Shown here: positions 31,451-37,255 of the stretch, one piece after another
Layout: each line of letters opens with the position of its first letter
Position numbering within the stretch: the stretch's first letter is position 1
Program-made: the position numbers and the translations under genes
From: Cyclobacteriaceae bacterium
Lineage (GTDB): Bacteria; Bacteroidota; Bacteroidia; Cytophagales; Cyclobacteriaceae
Reading direction: 5' to 3'
Assembly (NCBI GenBank): GCA_026989535.1
Contig: JALSJD010000136.1
Coordinates: 1 to 56,595 of the forward strand
Length of the DNA: 56,595 nt
Notes under the pieces: model-generated
The model's input: the letters and a program-made list of their open reading frames with translations, nothing else
Database searches by the model: none
What the model was told of the DNA's origin: nothing

Positions 31451-31870
31451 ATGATAAAAGAACCGCTTATATTTTCTAATAAAATGGCAGACCTCTATTT
31501 TAATGCCTCCACTAAGAAAATGGTGGTTATTTACCACGGATTAGTTGACTATGATTTACTGCTAGAAATTATTGACTCTGTTAACCAAATAGCCACAGAA
31601 ACTGGAATTTACGGAACTTTAGTTGATATCTCCGAATTACGAGGCTCATTTCATCGCTTATTAGGTTATATGGAAGAAACTGGGTTTCCGCTCCTCGTGG
31701 AGCAAGGGTTAAAATTTCAGGCACAAATAATTTCGGATGACTTAATGATGCAAAACCTATCAAAAAAGATAGAAAAACTATTGACCTCGCTTGGTGTAAA
31801 TTTAAAAACATTTACTAACAGAGCCGAAGGGGAAGAATGGCTTAACTACCAACTTGCCCGCAAAGGTTAA
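31451..31870 (+). CDS. STAS/SpoIIAA-like protein (paralogue of 36842-37255)
   Basis: 139 residues, no signal peptide. It aligns with the protein at 36842-37255 across its length: DISELRGSFHRLLGYMEETG against DFRRLQGSFKNIFEYLNTEY, and FQAQIISDDLM against CKAFIISEDII. The alternating beta-alpha pattern suggests a STAS or SpoIIAA-like fold as used in signalling. It begins 11 bp after the ClC gene, so they are cotranscribed and it could regulate the channel. Confidence 0.7.
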   Translation: MIKEPLIFSNKMADLYFNASTKKMVVIYHGLVDYDLLLEIIDSVNQIATETGIYGTLVDISELRGSFHRLLGYMEETGFPLLVEQGLKFQAQIISDDLMMQNLSKKIEKLLTSLGVNLKTFTNRAEGEEWLNYQLARKG

Positions 31871-32903: not shown

Positions 32904-33116
32904 TCGGACGATAGTCAGACCAAAAAATAACAACAACCTGACTCTTGTATGATAGAGGGAAGCTCTATTAATTGAATGAATCTAGCCTATTATAATGTTT
33001 ATTTAAAACCGTTAAAACGGTTTCTGTAGTTTAGTTTGCTAACATAGCCCACGGTTTAAACCGTGGGCTATGTTAAATTTATAATTTACACAAATGGTTT
33101 TAACCATTTTTCGTAA
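32904..33116. repeat. Tandem duplication, copy 1 (213 bp)
   Basis: Identical to 33153-33365 except for two bases. Each copy holds three hairpins: AAACCGTT/AACGGTTT, the perfect 34-bp palindrome with arm AACATAGCCCACGGTTT, and AAATGGTT/AACCATTT. The third-to-first spacing and absence of ORFs suggest a structured repeat element. Confidence 0.9.
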
Positions 33117-33152: not shown

Positions 33153-33365
33153 TCGGACGATAGTCAGACCAAAAAATAACAACAACCTGACTCTTGTATG
33201 ATAGAGGGAAGCTCTATTAATTGAATGAATCTAGCCTATTATAGTGTTTATTTAAAACCGTTAAAACGGTTTCTGTAGTTTAGTTTGCTAACATAGCCCA
33301 CGGTTTAAACCGTGGGCTATGTTACATTTATAATTTACACAAATGGTTTTAACCATTTTTCGTAA
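33153..33365. repeat. Tandem duplication, copy 2 (213 bp)
   Basis: Second copy of 32904-33116; differences are TATTATAGTG for TATTATAATG, and GTTACATT for GTTAAATT. The near identity points to a recent duplication or ongoing conversion. Confidence 0.9.
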
Positions 33366-33466: not shown

Positions 33467-35254
33467 TTAGGTTAAAGAAGCACTCATAACAATATGAATA
33501 CCCTTGCCAGGTTTAGAATCAATGTTAATTTTTCCTTTAATAGATTCCACCCTTGCTATTAAATTTTTTATCCCCATGCCTTTAAACGCAGTTTTCTTTG
33601 CATCAAACCCTTTTCCATCATCTTCATAAATAAGATCAATCTCATTTTTATAGCGCGTAAGCTGAATAAAAAATGAAGTGGCCCCAGAATGCCTAATGGT
33701 ATTATTCACTAGTTCGAGTATAATATGAAAAATGGTTTTTTCATATTTTTTAGGTAGGCGTTCTTCCAAATTGGTGGTCGTAAAATCACCTTCAATCTTA
33801 TTGCTTTCGTTAACGGATCGAATAAAATCACTAACCGCATTTTCTAACCCAAATTTAGTGAGCATATCTGTAGAAAGGTTATGGGAAATTTCGCGCGTTT
33901 CCTTAATAGCAGCTTCTACCATTTCGGTTAAAGTTGAGTTTTTTTGCCCATTTTTAAGCGTTAGCAATTTTATAGTCGATAACCTTGCCCCCAACCTATC
34001 GTGCAAATCAGTAGCAATCCTATTCCGTTCCTCTTCCTGCCCCTGCATCATGGCATTAAGCTCCTTAATTTCTTGTGCCTGGCTTAACCGGTCAATTTCT
34101 TGCACTTTTAACGACTGTTGATATTTTTGCCGCTGAATAAAATACAGCACAGTAATTATTAATAATAAGGCTACCCCAATGGCCATGGCTAAATACCAAT
34201 AGCTTAGCCTTGTTTTTGCTTCTGTTTGCTTAATCTGATCTTTTAAATCATTCCCAATTTTTTGGGTTTCATAAAGCACTTCAAGCTCCTTTAGGTTTTT
34301 GGCCTTTTCTTGGTTGTAAATTGAATCGTTTAGAGAGTTATAGATGGCGAATAAACTATCGGCTTGCTCTAGCTCACCAAGCTTAATTTTGCATTTTAAG
34401 ATATTGGTGAGAAAATGTAAGTAGTTAATATCATCTTCAAAATGAGATGCCAGTTTAGCTCCTTTATTGTAGCTATCTAGTGCAATGCCATAATTACCCT
34501 GCTCCATATAAATATTACCCACATTAAGAAAGGTGATAATTTGTCTTTTTTTATCACCAAGTGTTTCATTTATAGAAATAGACTTATGGTAATAATACAG
34601 TGACGAATCAATTTTTAATTCATTAAAAAACAGAACACCTAAATTATTATAGACTGAAGAAATTCTGGAAGAATCCTGAACAGCTATATATTTTTCTAAA
34701 GCCTTTTGGTAATACTCTTTGGCTAACTTATAATCATTCGCTTTGTACTTAGGATTAGCTAATATTGTCGCCAGCCCAAGGTAAATCATTGGGAGGCGCG
34801 TAGCATCATTTGCCGCAGCAACTTGGTCTTTTGCCTCCAAATAGTACTTTAAGGCTAAATCAAGCTCTTTTTGTCTGAGATAATAGGCAGCCAAATTAAT
34901 ATAATTGCCTATTAAAACTTTATTATTCTTTAAAAGTTTATTAATTTTTATAGCGTTGTAAAACGCTAAAACCGCCTCTTTATTATTGCCAATAAATAAT
35001 TGAGAATTACCAATATTATTATAACATTTGGCTATGCCAATTGAATCGGGGATGACCGTAAACCCATTTAAGGCTTCTTTATATGTAAGCAATGCCGAGT
35101 CATACTTTTTATTATTAAAAAATAGATGCCCTTCTTGTCGGAGAGCCTCTGCTGCTTCCGTTAATGTTTTTGACTCCACACTTTGCCCATAGAGCTTTGC
35201 GCTACCAATAAGTACCACTAAAAAACTTATACCAATTATAATAATTCTCATCAT
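33467..35254 (-). CDS. TPR-containing membrane sensor histidine kinase (HisKA_3 type)
   Basis: 595 residues. Signal peptide about 1-24, an extracytoplasmic region with six or more TPR units (about 35-320), a coiled linker, one membrane helix (about 352-373) and a cytoplasmic kinase core. The phosphoacceptor is His418 in ATDLHDRLGARLS, the NarL-partner class. The ATP domain shows the N box (ELVNNTIRHSG) and G boxes (DDGKGFD ... GMGIKNL ... KPGKGIHI). It lies downstream, on the same strand, of a NarL-type regulator and two small exported peptides; the periplasmic TPR array is well placed to bind a peptide. Confidence 0.9.
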   Translation of the reverse strand: MMRIIIIGISFLVVLIGSAKLYGQSVESKTLTEAAEALRQEGHLFFNNKKYDSALLTYKEALNGFTVIPDSIGIAKCYNNIGNSQLFIGNNKEAVLAFYNAIKINKLLKNNKVLIGNYINLAAYYLRQKELDLALKYYLEAKDQVAAANDATRLPMIYLGLATILANPKYKANDYKLAKEYYQKALEKYIAVQDSSRISSVYNNLGVLFFNELKIDSSLYYYHKSISINETLGDKKRQIITFLNVGNIYMEQGNYGIALDSYNKGAKLASHFEDDINYLHFLTNILKCKIKLGELEQADSLFAIYNSLNDSIYNQEKAKNLKELEVLYETQKIGNDLKDQIKQTEAKTRLSYWYLAMAIGVALLLIITVLYFIQRQKYQQSLKVQEIDRLSQAQEIKELNAMMQGQEEERNRIATDLHDRLGARLSTIKLLTLKNGQKNSTLTEMVEAAIKETREISHNLSTDMLTKFGLENAVSDFIRSVNESNKIEGDFTTTNLEERLPKKYEKTIFHIILELVNNTIRHSGATSFFIQLTRYKNEIDLIYEDDGKGFDAKKTAFKGMGIKNLIARVESIKGKINIDSKPGKGIHIVMSASLT

Positions 35255-35301: not shown

Positions 35302-35439
35302 TTAATCATTCACCACCTCAATCTCAATTTGAGATTCGCCTCCTTCTAAATTAGCAAATTTATCTACAGGTTTAAAACTAGTGAGCACCACAAATAATGA
35401 AAAGGCTACTGTTATTTTTAGTATTTTTAAAAATTTCAT
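35302..35439 (-). CDS. Small exported peptide A (45 residues)
   Basis: ATG 35439 to TAA 35302. Basic start and hydrophobic signal-like helix (MKFLKILKITVAFSLFVVL), TSFKP, a variable acidic-mixed middle and the C-terminus GESQIEIEVVND. It is the same length as, and clearly homologous to, the neighbour peptide B, sharing MK--K-LKI, TS, P and SQIxIEVVND. It lies 47 bp upstream of the kinase gene. I do not recognise the family. Conservation of both ends in two tandem genes supports true coding. Confidence 0.75.
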   Translation of the reverse strand: MKFLKILKITVAFSLFVVLTSFKPVDKFANLEGGESQIEIEVVND

Positions 35440-35476
35440 AATTATTTTATATTTAATACGATGTTAATTGTTACTA

Positions 35477-35614
35477 TTAGTCATTTACAACTTCTATCAT
35501 TATCTGCGAATCTCCATTAGTTTCTTTTGGATTAATTTCTTCTGGGTTACAGCTAGTAGAGATTACAAGTACCATTAATACAAAAGCGATTTTTAATGTT
35601 TTTACAATTTTCAT
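35477..35614 (-). CDS. Small exported peptide B (45 residues)
   Basis: ATG 35614 to TAA 35477, 37 bp upstream of peptide A. Signal-like MKIVKTLKIAFVLMVLVIS, then TSCNPEEINP: the Cys could be lipidated, though the lipobox (STSC) is weak. C-terminus GDSQIMIEVVND matches peptide A. A Cys in B where A has Phe suggests different fates, tethered against free. Located between the response regulator and the kinase gene on the same strand. Candidate ligand or accessory of the two-component pair; inference only. Confidence 0.75.
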   Translation of the reverse strand: MKIVKTLKIAFVLMVLVISTSCNPEEINPKETNGDSQIMIEVVND

Positions 35615-35652
35615 AATTATATAAATTTAGTTGTGCTCCAAAACCAATCAGA

Positions 35653-35710
35653 GCGGGGTTAGTTGTTTAATTTCAGCACAATAATAAAGCAAGTTTTTAG
35701 ATAACCCCGC
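35653..35710. promoter_or_regulatory. Inverted repeat between regulator and peptide genes
   Basis: GCGGGGTTA (35653-35661) and TAACCCCGC (35702-35710), a 9-bp perfect stem with 40 nt between. It lies in the 264-bp gap (35615-35878) after the response regulator stop and before peptide B. It could separate transcription of the peptides from that of the regulator. No gene is seen in the gap. Confidence 0.4.
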
Positions 35711-35878
35711 ACTGAAAATAATCAAATAAAAACTATTATTAATAGGCCATAAATAGCAGGTGCAATACACTAAAGTAGCAGGATTGATATTTGAGTGGAA
35801 AATACTACGCTGTGAGTTGGCTCTATATACCACCAGAACCATCTATAAATAGTACAAAAAAATAAAATGAGGGATGTT

Positions 35879-36553
35879 TTATTCTATAAAGCCACCTTTA
35901 ATGGCCATGGCAATTAACTGAGTTACATTTTTAGCATCAAACTTAATTAATAAATTTCTGCGGTAAGAGCTAATGGTGTGCACGCTGGTTTCCATACTAT
36001 CCGAAATTTCTTCAGAGGTACTGCCTTCACTTAGCAGTCGAAGCAATAATTTTTCTTGACGAGACAGCTTGATTTCCGTTTTTTTATCGGCAAGGCCACG
36101 CATACTCAAAGCCATTAAGTTTGATACATCTTGCGAAAAATAACTCCCTCCTTCTAATACACGGTCAATGGCCTCTTCTAATTCGTCTGGCGTTGTGTTT
36201 TTTAAGATATAACCGCTGGCACCCGCTTTAATAGCATTTTGAATGTAACCGGCTTTATTATGCATACTCATAATTAACACCTTGGTCTTTTCAAAAGTTT
36301 CAGAAATTATTTCGGTGGCATCAATACCATCCATCACGGGCATATTAATATCCATAATAATAATATCAACCCTGCCTTTTTTTACAATATCAATTGCTTC
36401 TTGCCCATTATTGGCAGTACCTACCACATGGTATTTAGGGTTCGCCTGCAATATCTGTACAACGCCATCTACCAATATGGTGTGGTCGTCAGCCACTACT
36501 ATATAAATTCTTTCGTCCTTTTCTTGAGTCATAAGCGTATAATTATTAGCCAA
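35879..36553 (-). CDS. NarL/LuxR-type response regulator
   Basis: 224 residues. Receiver domain with phosphoacceptor Asp68 (DIIIMDINMPVMDG), acidic pair in VADDHTILV and conserved Lys in YILKNTTPDELE. The C-terminal LuxR-type helix-turn-helix (LSRQEKLLLRLLSEGSTSEE ... VHTISSYRRNLLIKFDAKN) covers about 155-220. ATG codons at 36553 and at 36532 (MTQEKDERIYIVV) are both possible. It is the class that partners HisKA_3 kinases, and a kinase of that class lies downstream on the same strand. The repeat array at 36661-36717 lies upstream of it. Confidence 0.93.
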   Translation of the reverse strand: MANNYTLMTQEKDERIYIVVADDHTILVDGVVQILQANPKYHVVGTANNGQEAIDIVKKGRVDIIIMDINMPVMDGIDATEIISETFEKTKVLIMSMHNKAGYIQNAIKAGASGYILKNTTPDELEEAIDRVLEGGSYFSQDVSNLMALSMRGLADKKTEIKLSRQEKLLLRLLSEGSTSEEISDSMETSVHTISSYRRNLLIKFDAKNVTQLIAMAIKGGFIE

Positions 36554-36841: not shown

Positions 36842-37255
36842 ATGATTATATATAAGGACAAAATATCGACCATTGAGTATGATAAAAAAAGCAAGAACAT
36901 AACGTATAACGAACGTGGGTTTGCTAAAAAGGAATTATTAATAGCGCAACTAAAAGCTGTAATGGAGTTTAGTAAAACCAATCGTGTAATAAGTACCATT
37001 GCTGATTTTAGGAGATTGCAAGGCTCGTTTAAAAACATATTCGAGTACCTGAATACCGAATACTACCCTGCTTTAAAATCGCAAGGGATTAAATGCAAAG
37101 CCTTTATTATATCTGAAGATATTATTAGCACTTATTTAACCAATGAGCTGGTAAAAGACCTAAAAAAACAAGGCATTGATGCAGCTATTTTTTCTAACAC
37201 CGCATCGGCTGGCACTTGGGTAAGCCAACATAATGACTCTATAGCAAAAGCATAA
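36842..37255 (+). CDS. STAS/SpoIIAA-like protein (paralogue of 31451-31870)
   Basis: 137 residues, cytoplasmic, alternating beta-alpha pattern. It shares the core DFRRLQGSFKNIFEYLN, IISEDII and the C-terminal IFSNTASAGTWV with the protein at 31451. Family members probably act as signalling or scaffold proteins; I cannot state a partner. It starts 288 bp from the divergent response regulator and has 5 bp between it and the HTH protein downstream, so the two form an operon. Confidence 0.7.
   Translation: MIIYKDKISTIEYDKKSKNITYNERGFAKKELLIAQLKAVMEFSKTNRVISTIADFRRLQGSFKNIFEYLNTEYYPALKSQGIKCKAFIISEDIISTYLTNELVKDLKKQGIDAAIFSNTASAGTWVSQHNDSIAKA

Follow-up and report, generated by a model that had tools for sequence, protein, structure and literature searches.

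Small lipoprotein-like peptides are repeatedly encoded beside TPR sensor proteins in Cyclobacteriaceae, and where a peptide with a lipobox-like Cys is accompanied by one without it, the C-terminal ends of the two tend to match within a genome. Judging from the sequences and a structural model, we give a probability of about 0.55 to the reading that these peptides are cognate partners of the TPR sensor, serving it as ligands or modulators by way of their C-terminal ends. The strongest reason for favouring it is that two differently anchored peptides have matched ends, for which a common reader would be the simplest cause.

The locus and its conservation within the genus

The window, i.e. the whole stretch of DNA that was analysed, comprises 56,595 nucleotides. 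On its minus strand the genes follow each other in the order response regulator, Cys-type peptide, Phe-type peptide and TPR kinase (Table 1), with 37 nt between the two peptide genes and 47 nt between the Phe-type gene and the kinase. This bears out an earlier interpretation of the DNA (the sequence-only reading), which had placed two minus-strand ORFs of 45 codons between a response regulator and a TPR-HisKA_3 kinase.

Table 1. Position and description of the features of the peptide-kinase locus (window coordinates)
Feature	Position	Strand	Description
LuxR/NarL-type response regulator	35879..36532	-	Pfam Response_reg + GerE
Leader ahead of the peptide genes	35615..35878	-	264 nt
Cys-type peptide gene	35477..35614	-	45 codons + stop, ATG start, signal-like N-terminus
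Phe-type (Cys-less) peptide gene	35302..35439	-	45 codons + stop, ATG start
TPR sensor histidine kinase	33467..35254	-	595 aa; Pfam TPR + HisKA_3 + HATPase_c
Predicted periplasmic TPR region of the kinase	34235..35167	-	about residues 30-340, seven helix pairs; Pfam and model

Both peptides have a basic start and one hydrophobic stretch. The Cys-type peptide carries a lipobox-like STSC site, an acidic CNPEE head and the end DSQIMIEVVND, and the Phe-type peptide has LTSF at the place of STSC and the end ESQIEIEVVND. A possibly lipidated Cys in one peptide and a Phe in the other had been noted before and are seen here as STSC and LTSF; the proposed shared ending (E/D)SQIxIEVVND is also present, with 9 of the last 11 residues identical. 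The kinase has a signal-like N-terminus, a TPR array, one hydrophobic TM-like stretch (assigned by eye) and the kinase core, in this order, and its Pfam matches were all above cut-off (TPR_12 76.5 bits, cut-off 30.1; HisKA_3 29.4, cut-off 24; HATPase_c 31.7, cut-off 26.4). The response regulator, whose start was placed at the ATG at 36532 rather than at the TTG (36553) of the ORF list, is probably the partner of this kinase.

The leader may hold the promoter of the peptide genes; a Bacteroidota -7 element was looked for in it and nothing clear was found. It contains a G+C-rich inverted repeat at 35653-35710 of the minus strand (GCGGGGTTA ... TAACCCCGC). The sequence of this repeat is not kept in G001, a second species of the genus, which forms another hairpin there. 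Downstream of the kinase, two direct repeats of 213 nt (32904-33116 and 33153-33365) are 99% identical, and both regions also contain long imperfect inverted repeats. Two plus-strand ORFs flanking the region, at 31451-31870 (139 aa) and 36842-37255 (137 aa), are apparent paralogues by eye and gave no Pfam family above cut-off. An ORF resembling them adjoins the locus in G001 (L083).

Within the genus, the window genome was compared with four relatives (G001 to G004). G001 has the regulator, the Cys peptide, the Phe peptide and the kinase in identical order; its peptides share 56% (Cys type) and 52% (Phe type) identity with those of the window, and its response regulator, in the same place, 58%. 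The equal length of the two peptides, which had been pointed out before, holds for the window and is incidental, since the copies in G001 are 45 and 46 aa long. The kinase search of named genomes led to JAGQYI010000003.1 (Cyclobacteriaceae bacterium MAG HKST-UBA61), with 58% identity. In G002 and G003 (81 and 82% complete) the kinase is present, the contigs stop before the peptide position, and the best regulator matches reach 38 and 37% identity. No close kinase orthologue was found in G004. When 98 genomes were searched with the single Phe-peptide sequence, the copy in G001 was the only convincing match outside the window.

Three contigs (G002 C292, G003 C281 and G155 C44) break off within the TPR part of the orthologous kinase, which could reflect variation between strains at this locus. 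The genus also conserves a further small lipoprotein, about 44-46 aa long, which has CPTY after its Cys and ends of the kind APAELVQNDL. It was seen at L268:399-533 (plus strand; window genome C164), L050, L053 (G002 C133) and L055 (G004 C336), with two copies each in G002 and G004, and no TPR gene was noticed beside any of them.

The nine end residues shared by the two window peptides have just one codon in common. In this shared end the differing sites number 1, 1 and 9 at codon positions 1, 2 and 3 (binomial P = 0.0014 under equal chance), and from this pattern it follows that the peptides are selected proteins and that the end is not a recent copy. Recent gene conversion as the source of the shared end was rejected on the codon differences. 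Selection on the ends, as the sequence-only reading had proposed, is thus seen at the protein level; the lack of protein selection that it had named as evidence against itself was looked for and not found. Over the whole genes, the comparison of window and G001 gave a dN of 0.34 for the Cys pair (dS not computable), a dN of 0.43 and a dS of 1.34 for the Phe pair, and a dN of 0.34 for the kinase. The middle of the Cys type is nearly unchanged in the orthologues (PEEINPKETNG and PEEINPKQTNG), and the ends shift in parallel between the species, from (D/E)SQIxIEVVND in the window to DTQTETPIVND and ESVVEVPIIND in G001. The variable middle described earlier therefore applies to the two paralogues, whereas orthologues keep their middles and it is the ends that differ between species.

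Two kinase clades with adjoining peptide genes

In 390 genomes of Cyclobacteriaceae (in the GTDB sense), a search with the window kinase gave orthologues of at least 37% identity in 18 places including the window, three of them cut by contig ends (G002, G003 and G155). All 15 assessable kinases of this clade, class A, have a peptide gene of 43-49 aa upstream on the same strand, for example MKTLKTIKYALVIVAMFTFSACELIDEPNMDTETCTGCSEGSAGEIEE; by a stricter scripted criterion the gene was recorded for 14 of the 15, with L156 missed. Outside the window genus, the gap between peptide gene and kinase is 35-81 nt and each locus has a single peptide, of the Cys type. A Phe copy at a class A sensor was found in two genomes only, the window genome and G001, so that the pair described in the sequence-only reading is kept in the second species but not in class A outside the genus. 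The peptide of G057 keeps NTDGDSQ, near the ETNGDSQ of the window, and in G156 (L155) the closest regulator (49% identity) lies about 4 kb from the peptide gene. Counting two loci of more distant kinases (L103 and L105), D or E is the last residue of 18 of 19 class A peptides, as compared to 61 of 409 longer ORFs.

The kinase of a second sensor clade, class D, is of the TPR-HisKA type (Pfam on two members, L148 and L153). Of 335 family genomes, 91 gave a match to it with E no higher than 1e-60, and the loci of the best 30 of these matches were read. Neighbours resembling metG and sppA by eye were seen at several of the loci. Cys peptides of 39-47 aa occur at all 30 loci in one to five tandem copies, typically with CTEEEVKP... 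and ends such as GGSPIKEG, and are transcribed away from the kinase. A Cys-less peptide of 46-58 aa, such as MKTKxII...LSFTF... with ends such as SGGFALKD, is present at 26 of the 30 loci; two of the four loci that miss it are cut by contig ends. As the class D genes point away from the kinase they cannot be a kinase leader, and such a role is ruled out for them by the divergent orientation. More generally, the explanation that the small upstream ORF merely tunes translation or transcription of the kinase fits the distance of 47 nt in the window, but it is highly improbable with peptides that are under protein-level selection and with peptide genes that are divergent from the kinase in class D.

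In class D the ends of the Cys and Cys-less peptides scored 17.9 within genomes and 14.4 between genomes (P = 5e-5, n = 26). The statistic takes genomes as exchangeable and was repeated after kinase clustering. With one genome per kinase cluster, P was 5e-5 at 70% (n = 19), 4e-4 at 60% (n = 15), 0.0012 at 50% (n = 8) and 0.033 at 45% (n = 5). The controls were null, with P = 0.70 for the first 20 residues and P = 0.60 for the middles (n = 15). Gly-rich ends may raise the scores, in all comparisons alike, and one spurious frame (L195) was removed by hand from the Cys-less list. In 7 of the 26 genomes the match within the genome was not above that genome's own mean against the other genomes. Both peptide types were also found at each of two further class D loci, one of which shows the match clearly by eye (GGGAGFERI and AGGFGLERI). 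Class D repeats, at another locus, the matched-end pattern of the window pair. The Cys-less peptides align weakly, identity to the window Phe peptide being 10-31% in the class D rows, and this alignment does not support common descent of the two.

Among 207 genomes of the taxonomic class, six had a match to the class D kinase; two of these belong to the same family and have both peptide types. Outside the family, no such lipoprotein was found at the three class D kinase loci with upstream sequence (L259, L260 and L261), L262 being left out of this count. In these limited searches nothing comparable to the peptide-TPR design was seen outside the family.

Specificity of the peptide-TPR association

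A blind profile was built from four peptides of the genus and run on the 390 family genomes. This profile also picks up the signal sequences of ordinary lipoproteins in long frames, and some match at E 0.5 was present in 300 of the 390 genomes; the Cys profile similarly gave a match at E 0.01 in 216 of 291 genomes of the order. Short-frame matches were defined as open frames of at most 85 aa with no in-frame stop, outside the genus, and the matches were listed to about E 0.037. Among the matches listed, 36 of the 42 short-frame ones adjoin a TPR gene (27 genomes; surroundings read), and the other six lie away from TPR genes and for the most part resemble frames within or opposite larger genes. 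The TPR neighbours comprise TPR-HisKA_3, TPR-HisKA and TPR-HisKA_2 kinases as well as TPR-TM proteins without a kinase domain. A complete lack of homologues of the ending, which the sequence-only reading had also named as evidence against itself, was not borne out; the profile led mainly to TPR genes.

For the loci that were fetched, a TPR-like ORF was found within 1.5 kb at 11 of 12 short-frame loci versus 0 of 16 long-frame match loci. As background, 202 non-TPR genes were taken from the loci around profile matches and from the window; one of them had a small lipoprotein-like ORF at most 500 nt upstream, and this ORF was the peptide of an adjoining TPR gene. By the scripted criterion, none of 26 generic TPR-HisKA_3 loci had such a gene. 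Three of 14 further loci from the kinase search had a peptide gene (L103, L104 and L105); among these 14, L102 is the cut locus of G155, and L022-L024 belong to both sets. Two further sensor kinases encoded in the window genome, the TPR-like C71 and C212 of another type, had no such gene. The association is specific, and most TPR-HisKA_3 kinases are without such a peptide. The earlier proposal that the peptides are ligands of TPR kinases is in this way partly supported by the selection, the repeated TPR association and the end match within genomes, but it does not extend to TPR-HisKA_3 kinases at large.

In the 291 order genomes, the matches of the Cys profile listed at E below 1e-6 were, for short frames, those at the known loci of the same family and L242. 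The latter (L242:1501-1698, plus strand, E 8.6e-7) is a Cys-rich lipoprotein-like ORF of 65 aa in G068, from another family of the order, and no TPR-like ORF was found beside it. Several cassettes per genome, each with a lipoprotein of about 51 aa (TSCQEEEIIP...) followed by a TPR protein, were seen at L138-L146 (G306 and G290) and L149 (G317). Their TPR proteins are about 450-505 aa long and without a kinase domain, and in several cassettes an ORF that by eye resembles an XRE-type regulator follows in convergent orientation.

The peptides could also be outputs rather than inputs, i.e. small surface lipoproteins or a two-peptide toxin under the control of a TPR system whose kinase senses some other thing. 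We regard this as improbable. Sets of two peptides and genes repeated in tandem, as many as five in one genome, do resemble effector or bacteriocin loci, and ABC-transporter genes (MacB/LolD type, by eye) lie about 3-5 kb off in L147 and L155. In the loci read, however, inspection by eye revealed no gene for export, immunity or modification immediately next to the peptides, and what the peptide genes accompany, in either orientation, is the sensor gene itself, kinase-less TPR proteins included.

As to known families, the members of the Cys type that were scanned gave no Pfam or NCBIfam family above cut-off. The window Cys peptide matched the Chryseobasin-related MNIO RiPP precursor (NF050125) with 16.4 bits, below the cut-off of 40, and this was the best E for NF050125 among 28 Cys-type members. 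The PG1828 family lipoprotein (NF050142) reached at best 24.2 bits (L180), below its cut-off of 50; 11 of 27 Cys-type members matched it at E <=0.01 via their first 26-33 residues (signal and head), and the window Cys peptide did not match. The best E of 22 Cys-less peptides against NCBIfam was 0.0012 (YhcN, one member), and the window Phe peptide gave no Pfam family above cut-off. By their sequence the Cys-type members look like lipoproteins, with a basic N-terminus, a hydrophobic stretch and a Cys after small residues that is invariant in 28 of 28. The residue at -3 is S in the window Cys peptide, the usual residues at this lipobox position being L, V or I. Acidic residues follow at about +3 to +6 after the Cys, as in CNPEE, CTEEE, CEEEE and similar heads.

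Sensor fold, proposed action and known systems

An AlphaFold2 model of kinase residues 1-401, made with four relatives, has a TPR domain of seven helix pairs with a mean pLDDT of 84. The nearest solved folds were LGN/Pins TPRs, many of them with peptide ligands (Z about 28; the first four matches 2.6-2.8 A over 300 residues). The model was also similar to NprR (Z 22.4, 4.6 A, 301 residues), RapI (Z 22.1, 4.4 A, 301 residues), RapF and KLC with C-terminal cargo peptides (Z about 20). Other TPR chains, i.e. designed CTPR, OGT and proteasome subunits, matched with Z about 20-22. The modelled sensor domain is consistent with a TPR superhelix of the peptide-binding type, as had been suggested for the array from its sequence, a shared fold in itself showing no function. 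The TPR domains of 16 class A kinases were on average 40% identical to the window and their kinase cores 54%. N120, N204 and N284 are invariant in these 16 kinases, and K289 is nearly so. In OGT and Rap-like TPRs, Asn at this place of the repeat faces the groove and contacts peptide backbones. Asn is common at such places in this TPR type, which counts against the ligand reading.

In the ligand reading the Cys-type peptide would be exported and lipidated at its Cys, and the Phe-type peptide would be held by, or cleaved from, its Cys-less signal-like N-terminus. The C-terminal 8-11 residues would be the recognised part and would reach the periplasm, where the peptide ends would dock on the concave side of the TPR domain, in its groove. 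Docking would set the activity of the kinase, whether by activating or by inhibiting it, and hence that of the NarL-type regulator. With two anchoring modes and one matched end, the sensor might read a membrane-held and a freer form. Use of the peptides as pheromones between cells is possible.

Two observations on the peptides count against a reading based on their ends. The acidic head resembles the Bacteroidota lipoprotein export signal (LES; PMC5080379), and the lipoprotein may thereby leave the periplasm and be out of reach of a sensor there. In addition, the signal and the head are the most conserved parts of the peptide in the g55 relatives, with an amino-acid identity of 0.70 and 0.84, as compared to 0.55 for the TPR domain and 0.31 for the kinase's own signal peptide (nine of ten loci, L087-L095, with L096 left out). 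As a side observation, third codon positions in the g55 peptide genes differ by 0.38 and 0.32, versus 0.53-0.60 in the adjoining kinase; codon bias by high expression or constraint at the RNA level may be behind this.

Such conservation of signal and head would suit a sentinel of the envelope, in which the lipoprotein is normally passed on to the outer membrane or the cell surface and stays within reach of the TPR domain when its traffic fails, resulting in a report of envelope stress by the kinase; the peptide would then be a ligand and not a message to other cells. The Cys, invariant in all 28 Cys types and mostly followed by acidic residues like the Bacteroidota export signal (PMC5080379), agrees with this. 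We consider it unlikely but worth weighing, as it leaves unexplained both the Cys-less partner and why the ends of the two types match within genomes and differ between them.

The peptides could instead be membrane regulators of the MgrB kind, acting on the kinase by their hydrophobic segment as feedback inhibitors or connectors, with tails of little importance. Their size, the single hydrophobic segment and the gene adjoining the kinase speak for this, as do the precedent of MgrB itself, a 47-aa membrane protein inhibiting PhoQ (PMC8404706), and the higher conservation of the peptide signal than of the kinase signal peptide at the g55 loci. The Cys, however, is invariant in the Cys types, the C-terminal ends are selected and matched, and a kinase domain is missing from some of the partner TPR proteins, all of which makes this explanation rather less likely still than the sentinel.

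Returning to the ligand reading, co-encoded exported peptides provide TPR sensors with good candidates for their missing signals, with exact sequences at hand, and the arrangement of peptide beside TPR gene offers a genomic rule for finding further ligand candidates. Such genes are easily left out by gene callers because they are about 40-60 codons long. TPR histidine kinases are common in the relatives (a match to the window kinase at E 1e-20 in 48 of 59 searched), and for one studied Bacteroidota example, the P. gingivalis TPR kinase FimS, the signal has been described as unknown (PMC11053733). Tentatively, and against the odds as we see them, the peptides may belong to a Gram-negative class with lipidated and unlipidated precursors, often in tandem, that have genome-specific matched ends and co-encoded periplasmic TPR sensors (HisKA_3, HisKA or HisKA_2 kinases or kinase-less TPR-TM proteins) and serve self-recognition between cells. 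If true, this would supply the missing ligand class for FimS-type TPR histidine kinases.

The design had not been recognised as described in the sequence-only reading, and our searches of the open-licence literature, preprints aside, turned up no account of TPR kinases with co-encoded small exported peptides. To MgrB and similar regulators the likeness, drawn partly from general background, lies in a length under 50 aa, a hydrophobic segment and a proposed action on a sensor kinase; here there is a lipobox-like Cys, another kinase architecture and a proposed action via matched ends. Surface lipoproteins of Bacteroidota with an LES (K-(D/E)2, SDDDD or SDDFE) likewise have a Cys followed by acidic residues (PMC5080379). 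In contrast to them, only about 18-40 residues follow the Cys here, and there is therefore no room for the usual folded domain.

FimS-type kinases of Bacteroidota share the TPR array followed by a histidine kinase core. The NCBIfam FimS model (NF053520) matched window kinase residues 87-388 with 73.7 bits, far under the cut-off of 600 bits for the equivalog. A polypeptide ligand has been suggested for FimS, and the parts of that account drawn on here describe no peptide gene for it (PMC11053733). The RRNPPA systems (Rap, NprR, PlcR, PrgX and AimR with Phr-type peptides) are alike in having a TPR superhelix receptor and a small exported peptide, encoded beside the receptor, whose C-terminal part is the presumed ligand. 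Their receptors are cytoplasmic and from Firmicutes (PMC9765709), and the window system is therefore not a member, though it may work alike. Here the TPR array stands ahead of a TM-like stretch, in fusion with a histidine kinase, a domain order that suggests a periplasmic location, and the precursors retain a lipobox or a signal-like anchor. Periplasmic TPR peptide signalling in Gram-negatives, if true, would be a solution separate from the intracellular one of the Firmicutes.
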